A stretch of 35,566 bases of DNA from Planctomycetota bacterium (lineage in GTDB: Bacteria; Planctomycetota; Phycisphaerae; Tepidisphaerales; Tepidisphaeraceae): contig JBCDKH010000013.1 of the NCBI GenBank assembly GCA_038746835.1, positions 1 to 35,566 on the forward strand, read 5' to 3'. Position numbers and translations under genes: made by a program. The notes under the pieces were generated by a model. The model saw only the letters and a program-made list of their open reading frames with translations, had not been told where the DNA came from and made no database searches. This document shows positions 55 through 664 of this stretch, piece by piece; within the stretch, counting starts at the first letter, position 1; each line of letters opens with the position of its first letter.

Positions 55-360
55 CTACAGGAGCGCGTCCTTTTCGCGTTCGGCGGCGAGGCGGGCGAGG
101 CCGGCGAGGAGGCCGTGGCGTTCCTGGTCGCGGATCGGGTCGGGGGCGGGCAGGCAGAGTTGTGACTTGCGCATGACGACCGTCTCAAGCCCCTGCTCCT
201 GGGCGGCCTTGGCAGCGAGGCGGGCGAGCCGCTCCGCCTTGCGTTTGCGGTGCAGGCGGCCGTAGTAGCCGGGGTTGCGCTCGCGGAACTGGCGTTGCCG
301 CTCGGTGTTGGACATCGGCGGGTGCGTGCCGCGTGGCTGGAAAACGGGCATTGACTGCAT
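55..360 (-). CDS. Small basic protein of unknown function next to the 21-nt repeat array
   Basis: A 101-residue protein. The start at 360 was chosen because GGAG (minus strand, 366-369) lies 5 nt upstream; a second ATG at 315 would begin MSNTERQRQF. An in-frame codon at 432 is also open but would read back into the repeat array. The central part is very basic (RQRQFRERNPGYYGRLHRKR) and continues into an Ala/Leu/Arg-rich helical stretch, so nucleic-acid binding is plausible, but no catalytic motif is visible. Short proteins with this kind of N-terminus are, from memory, frequent in planctomycetes and have no known role. The repeat array begins 68 nt upstream of the start, so it lies in the promoter region of this gene. 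A GC-rich hairpin follows the stop. Coding status is likely; function is unknown. Confidence 0.7.
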   Translation of the reverse strand: MQSMPVFQPRGTHPPMSNTERQRQFRERNPGYYGRLHRKRKAERLARLAAKAAQEQGLETVVMRKSQLCLPAPDPIRDQERHGLLAGLARLAAEREKDALL

Positions 361-427
361 GGTTGCTCCATCGGCGACTTGCGCAAGCGACTCCAGCGCA
401 GGCCGCTTCCCGTCAACACCAAGGTCG

Positions 428-664
428 CACAACGAACGCTCGACACCGAGTCACATTTGCTCGACGCGGCATAACGATGCGTCGAGCCCACATAACGTTT
501 GCCCGCCACCGCATAACGTTTCTACCGCATCGCATAACGATGCATCGTTGAGGCGGGCTTCGTCATCGAACACCGTTATGCGGCGCCCATCAAACGTTAT
601 GCGGACGACAACCTCCGTTATGCATGGAGCGTCAAACGTTATGCGAACGACAGCAATCGTTATG
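428..664. repeat. Two-armed 21-nt periodic repeat array, CATAACG core, arms in opposite orientation
   Basis: Exact CATAACG occurs at 470, 491, 512 and 533 on the plus strand. Its complement CGTTATG occurs at 574, 595, 616, 637 and 658. Every step within an arm is exactly 21 nt. Read in one orientation, the conserved block is about 11 nt (mostly G-CATAACG-N-T-G/T), and the other 10 nt differ between units. Two decayed in-phase units precede the left arm, with CACAACG at 428 and a TTTGC-bearing unit at 449. The arms are mirror-symmetric about 556.5, and 509-521 is perfectly complementary to 592-604 (13 nt). The array lies upstream of the small basic gene at 55-360. It has no match to CRISPR architecture. 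A DNA-binding array or structured RNA is inferred, not shown. Confidence 0.92.

Follow-up and report, generated by a model that had tools for sequence, protein, structure and literature searches.

A two-armed lattice of CATAACG-type sites at 21-bp steps recurs upstream of a small gene in Phycisphaerae

The analyzed stretch of DNA (35,566 nt, hereafter the window) is the entire contig C13 of a 3.85-Mb draft genome of the Phycisphaerae. It carries nine CATAACG sites in two opposed arms upstream of a small gene, and gene and array were found together at nine intact loci in eight genomes (the window and eight other loci). Judged from the sequences, the two may be assigned to a known kind of module, an upstream site array with a small candidate DNA-binding protein; the protein family would be an undescribed one. 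The features of the window are as follows:

55..360, minus strand: small gene, probable start ATG at 360, 101 aa (MQSMPVFQPRGTHPPMSNTERQRQFRERNPGYYGRLHRKRKAE...LCLPAP...)
361..427, minus strand: gap separating the array from the gene, presumably the promoter region
428..434, plus strand: degenerate outer site CACAACG on the lattice; lattice place 449 is lost
470..539, plus strand: gene-proximal arm, four exact CATAACG sites (starts 470, 491, 512, and 533), 21-nt step
540..573, no strand: centre, where the site direction flips; 41 bp between the centres of the flanking 7-mers
574..664, minus strand: gene-distal arm, five exact sites, read as CGTTATG on the plus strand (574, 595, 616, 637, and 658), 21-nt step

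The sites lie where an earlier note on this DNA had placed them, in one arm of four and an opposite arm of five, with a step of exactly 21 nt every time in both arms, and they are the only nine copies of CATAACG on either strand of the window. The note had held that chance could not produce the array; dinucleotide shuffles of the window contained 1.1 copies on average and none of 100 reached nine, even with the spacing disregarded. The outer site at 428-434 has one mismatch and keeps to the 21-nt lattice, two units outward. No second pair of CATAAC sequences 21 nt apart was present elsewhere in the draft genome. In the gap, a CCGAT element (ATCGG on the plus strand, 370-374) was noticed by eye; at several of the loci this element recurs, 9-11 nt ahead of the probable start codon. 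Just past the array, a perfect 15-bp inverted repeat (CGGTGGCACGGGTCG / CGACCCGTGCCACCG) occupies positions 675-689 and 743-757 and looks like a dispersed REP-like element, since similar GGTGGCAC... repeats adjoin the array of G019. Further along on the minus strand, a predicted protein (765-1529) has a coiled-coil-like N-terminus followed by a run of GGGAxGxxAxGG repeats and no family match, and a small HicB/UPF0150-like protein (2067-2285; Pfam E 0.002, below the cut-off) is encoded without an obvious adjoining HicA toxin.

The conserved block of the small gene opens with a second in-frame ATG (315 in the window); translation probably begins at the upstream ATG (360), after which comes a short Pro-rich stretch. 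The family pattern is that of a basic protein, M[ST]N.ERQR.FR.R[NH]PGYY.RLH.KRKAE...LPAP. No significant match was obtained against Pfam, NCBIfam, PHROG, PADLOC, or PDB sequences, and, as far as the literature and these libraries show, the family is undescribed and has no known relatives. AlphaFold2 predicted a helix-turn-helix hairpin (H3-13 and H17-49) with a pLDDT of 90-98 over the conserved part and a pTM of only 0.40; the modeled hairpin has many Arg and Lys residues, and its N-terminal half is basic. Strands are absent from the model, which means that a ribbon-helix-helix fold is not predicted, and Foldseek gave no fold match in the PDB. Over 27 conserved codons, dN was below dS in nearly all pairs, which indicates a real gene under selection.

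The earlier note had proposed a search of related planctomycetes for such arrays beside the same small gene, and they were found there, at 9/9 intact gene loci. A two-site pattern search of 150 related genomes yielded two-armed arrays in G137, G021, and G019, in each of which the small gene (M[ST]N.ERQR.FR.R[NH]P.YY...) starts shortly past the array; the remaining matches were mostly single pairs and a few short simple repeats. A three-site pattern with one mismatch, applied to 397 genomes of the class, named as Phycisphaerae after records obtained with the protein, recovered the same arrays and two copies in G167; its other matches, besides one in G066, were a short tandem repeat in G336, a simple repeat in G089, and weak ones. 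All genomes in which multi-site CATAAC arrays with divergent spacers were found by pattern first (G000, G019, G021, G137, and G167) have the small gene. The protein search gave intact members in G000, G019, G021 (two paralogues), G093, G137, G167, G748 (OFTM33), and G945; in the evenly drawn class sample, intact carriers amounted to 6 of 397 genomes. G821 (L183) has a decayed gene without an array. Protein matches on L046, L047, and L049 proved spurious, and a short match on L052 (Flavobacteriales) had no array. No relatives of the small protein were found in plasmid or phage records, and a phage or plasmid origin was rejected on this ground. The matches of the pattern in viral sequences were other loci or repeats of tandem or coding type. 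The module turned up in none of the literature searches.

G066 has a 42-nt alternating repeat on a 21-nt lattice and no small gene. Two such arrays lie in L213 of this genome (1486-1700 and 7495-7683; GCGCA[TA]AACGCCAG...), one of which abuts a reading frame resembling a broken IS1595-type transposase. The link to IS1595 that this suggested was dismissed: five carrier genomes have no IS1595 domain, and in three others arrays are absent from the transposase loci.

Across 75 aligned units of the CATAACG-type loci, the core is GCATAACG, with 1.6-2.0 bits at positions 1-8 (somewhat inflated, the units having been picked by likeness to the core), followed by a weak AAA; about 10 of the 21 positions are free, and the spacers carry almost no bits. 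Both arms are present at 7/9 intact loci. In the reading direction towards the gene, sites of the distal arm run forward at every such locus and those of the proximal arm backward, so that both arms face the centre, and the reversal of direction regarded as unusual in the earlier note is in fact the usual arrangement in the family. The centre-to-centre distance across the flip is 21 in G748, G167, and the paralogue locus of G021 (G021b), 42 in G137, G021a, and G019, and 41 in the window; the lattice of core centres is thus unbroken at six of the seven two-arm loci and 1 bp off in the window. Arm sizes vary freely (4 and 12 in G748, 12 and 2 in G137), the number of sites ranges from 3 to 16, and the site nearest to the conserved ATG lies 116-206 bp upstream of it at the loci measured. 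G945 has a single arm with alternate sites. G093 also has a single arm, with one step of 20 nt and the core GATAACG/CATAACG. The G021b locus has the core CGAAACG on the same 21-bp lattice, and in its protein ERTQEFRRRNPDYNRLY replaces ERQR.FR.RNPGYY.RLH. Unrelated loci have different spacers but the same spacing, which upholds the proposal that selection maintains core and spacing. Neither a lone slippage product nor a lapse of the spacing, which the note had named as outcomes that would speak against it, was seen. Tandem duplication does enlarge the arrays, with identical units in G748 and near-identical ones in G021b and G945.

In the 650 bp upstream of the gene, a lag of 21 or 42 was the strongest repeat lag at 9/9 intact loci. 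Lag 21 was absent from about 500 unbiased control windows taken at these loci; control windows with this lag occurred only in stretches fetched for their 21-nt arrays. Between families, the loci have only the gene and the array in common, apart from one further gene stretch in G167 and G748, which belong to one family; the few genes common to pairs of loci do not recur at further loci. In G137 and G945, members of one genus, the locus is syntenic and vertically kept, and the arrays no longer align. Their congeners G942 and G943 have both flanking genes on one contig and lack both gene and array, and the two therefore behave as one unit. G167 contains a second copy of 371 bp, 98% identical, which spans the array and the first codons; its gene is truncated and runs into unrelated repeats, dense tandem and interspersed ones (GCTCACGCCTCCGCTCCCTCACGGTCGCGG..., L212 8490-9300) following directly. 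No second site cluster was detected in G000, G019, G021, or G137, which makes the sites look like a target private to the module.

The small protein probably binds its own upstream array cooperatively and regulates its own gene, array and gene forming a two-part module. This reading builds on direct observations, namely the lattice and its conservation, the strict linkage to the gene, the joint presence and absence, and the selection on the protein; we infer from them the role of the protein as array binder, its cooperativity, autoregulation, and any further roles. The protein would be the natural candidate for the binder because the array occurs and is lost with it, because there is no second cluster, and because the core shifts with the N-terminus in G021b; the covariation of core and protein is clear in this paralogue and weaker in a single further case, G093. 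According to the model, one GCATAACG site per 21-bp unit would be bound by the small basic protein, and, the sites being two helical turns apart, bound copies would be neighbours on the same face of the DNA, able to touch. This could give rise to a cooperative nucleoprotein patch of some 200-400 bp, which the two inward-facing arms would let grow from both sides of the centre. The most likely immediate effect would be autoregulation of the gene's promoter, located in the gap that follows the array. Beyond this, the complex might help to maintain or segregate the locus, possibly in a centromere-like manner. Some observations count against parts of this model. Nine to sixteen sites exceed the need of plain autorepression, G945 and G093 are single-armed, one step in G093 is 20 nt, the arms of the window are 1 bp off the common lattice, and the protein matched neither a PDB fold nor a confirmed family of DNA-binding proteins. 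The sites might also be occupied by a protein of the host, with the small protein having another function. A bolder version, which we consider possible though doubtful, is an undescribed class of autonomous chromosomal module in which a small helical-hairpin protein and a private two-armed lattice co-diversify, the protein's N-terminus with the core, are gained and lost together, and form a motor-less centromere-like or silencing patch.

The small proteins of plasmid centromeres bind many short sites, direct and inverted, that lie upstream of their own gene, and they repress their own operon; this applies to type Ib (ParG/omega), type II (ParR-parC), and type III (TubR-tubC) as well as to the single-gene systems pSK1 par and R388 StbA. 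The module resembles them in its layout and, if the proposed model holds, in its autoregulation. The array could accordingly be thought of as centromere-like, with the small protein binding it and stabilizing or positioning the locus as plasmid par systems do, and with the copies being chromosomal or integrated remnants; we regard this as unlikely. In its favour, par centromeres lie upstream of par genes and consist of direct and inverted repeats bound by small proteins that repress their own operons (PMC5016525), and a direct and inverted repeat array upstream of a small gene is just what the loci have. On a contig from a viral collection (L090, 1-540), 21-nt units (GGGACATAACGACCCGAAAAC with variants) also form a long array, probably a partition site, which precedes a small gene and a ParA-like one. 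Against it, no motor NTPase of the ParA, ParM, or TubZ type adjoins the array or is common to the loci, the small protein alone being common to loci of different families. Moreover, the predicted model without strands argues against a ribbon-helix-helix protein, no sequence relation to plasmid centromere proteins emerged from the Pfam and NCBIfam searches, and plasmid and phage records held no relative. As regards pSK1 Par and StbA, the comparison was by Pfam and NCBIfam families, with no significant match of any kind. The module further differs in its fixed 21-bp step, short core, and two opposed arms, and is chromosomal, with loci on chromosome-sized single contigs of 3.84 and 4.62 Mb. Less likely still is an identity as, or descent from, a small mobile element whose array docks a recombinase or transposase at one end. 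Its patchy presence (the 6 intact carriers among 397 sampled genomes), neighbours that differ by family, the second copy in G167, and species-level absence at a syntenic site would suit such an origin. However, no transposase, recombinase, or target duplication is common to the loci, intact IS1595-type transposase loci in three carrier genomes lack the array, the locus was retained vertically between G137 and G945, and ordinary duplication suffices for the G167 copy because its truncated gene is embedded in other repeats.

Since binding by the small protein itself is deduced, a host regulator might instead occupy the array, with the small gene merely its target. This is improbable, as the core changes with the paralogue inside one genome (G021), the carrier genomes checked contain no other site pair, and array and gene are lost together. 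Least probable of all, and no more than a remote possibility, is an action of the array as RNA, be it a long interrupted hairpin, an antisense transcript, or type III antitoxin-like repeats. The joint fold of both arms is far better than that of shuffles (z -5.6, -9.4, and -5.0), but such stability follows from opposed copies of one core. Spacer complementarity in mirrored register (shift 0) is 40%, compared with 37-62% when the register is shifted, and this lack of pairing disfavours a hairpin; some loci have a single arm or arms that differ greatly in size (4 and 12; 12 and 2), and no Rfam match covers the array. A type III toxin-antitoxin system was rejected, given the opposed arms, the absence of mirrored spacer pairing, and a protein that is not ToxN-like. 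So was a CRISPR array: the conserved part is 8 bp plus the weak AAA, the direction flips, and the few nearby genes scanned are not cas. A neutral satellite does not fit core and spacing that recur at unrelated loci with different spacers. A coding repeat was discarded: several frames of the arrays are open, 21 being a multiple of 3, but the encoded peptides are not the same from locus to locus or from arm to arm.

Among other known systems, the iterons of Rep_3-type replicons come close. Their steps are about two helical turns, and the initiator gene stands beside the array and regulates itself. The module shares the step and the adjoining gene, and to this extent the likeness to iterons or an operator array drawn in the earlier note held; a strict iteron set is excluded, there being no adjacent replication initiator. 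The small protein matched no initiator family in Pfam or NCBIfam, and no other gene is common to the loci. The module also differs from iterons in its protein of about 100 aa, its two opposed arms, the roughly 10 free positions of 21, and its chromosomal location. REP/RAYT systems likewise place short repeats beside one gene in bacterial chromosomes, but RAYT is a tyrosine transposase and the repeats are dispersed hairpins, whereas the module forms one cluster per genome and has no such protein. On a prophage-like contig (L248, 4980-5210), about nine 21-nt units (CATAACGCTATTCACTGCACA) lie directly before a repressor-like gene. This operator is alike in unit number, step, and the CATAACG core, by which the pattern search had picked it; in contrast to the module, its units are nearly identical and run in one direction, and no related protein is present. 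The common core may be due to chance.

In the module, a protein family that has no known relatives comes together with its likely DNA target, down to the core and the spacing. Its members range over two cores, 3 to 16 sites, and one or two arms, a natural series for studying how side-by-side binding on one face depends on the number and direction of sites. Should it turn out to be a motor-less centromere or a selfish module of planctomycete chromosomes, it would represent a new kind of locus in a phylum with a little-known chromosome biology.
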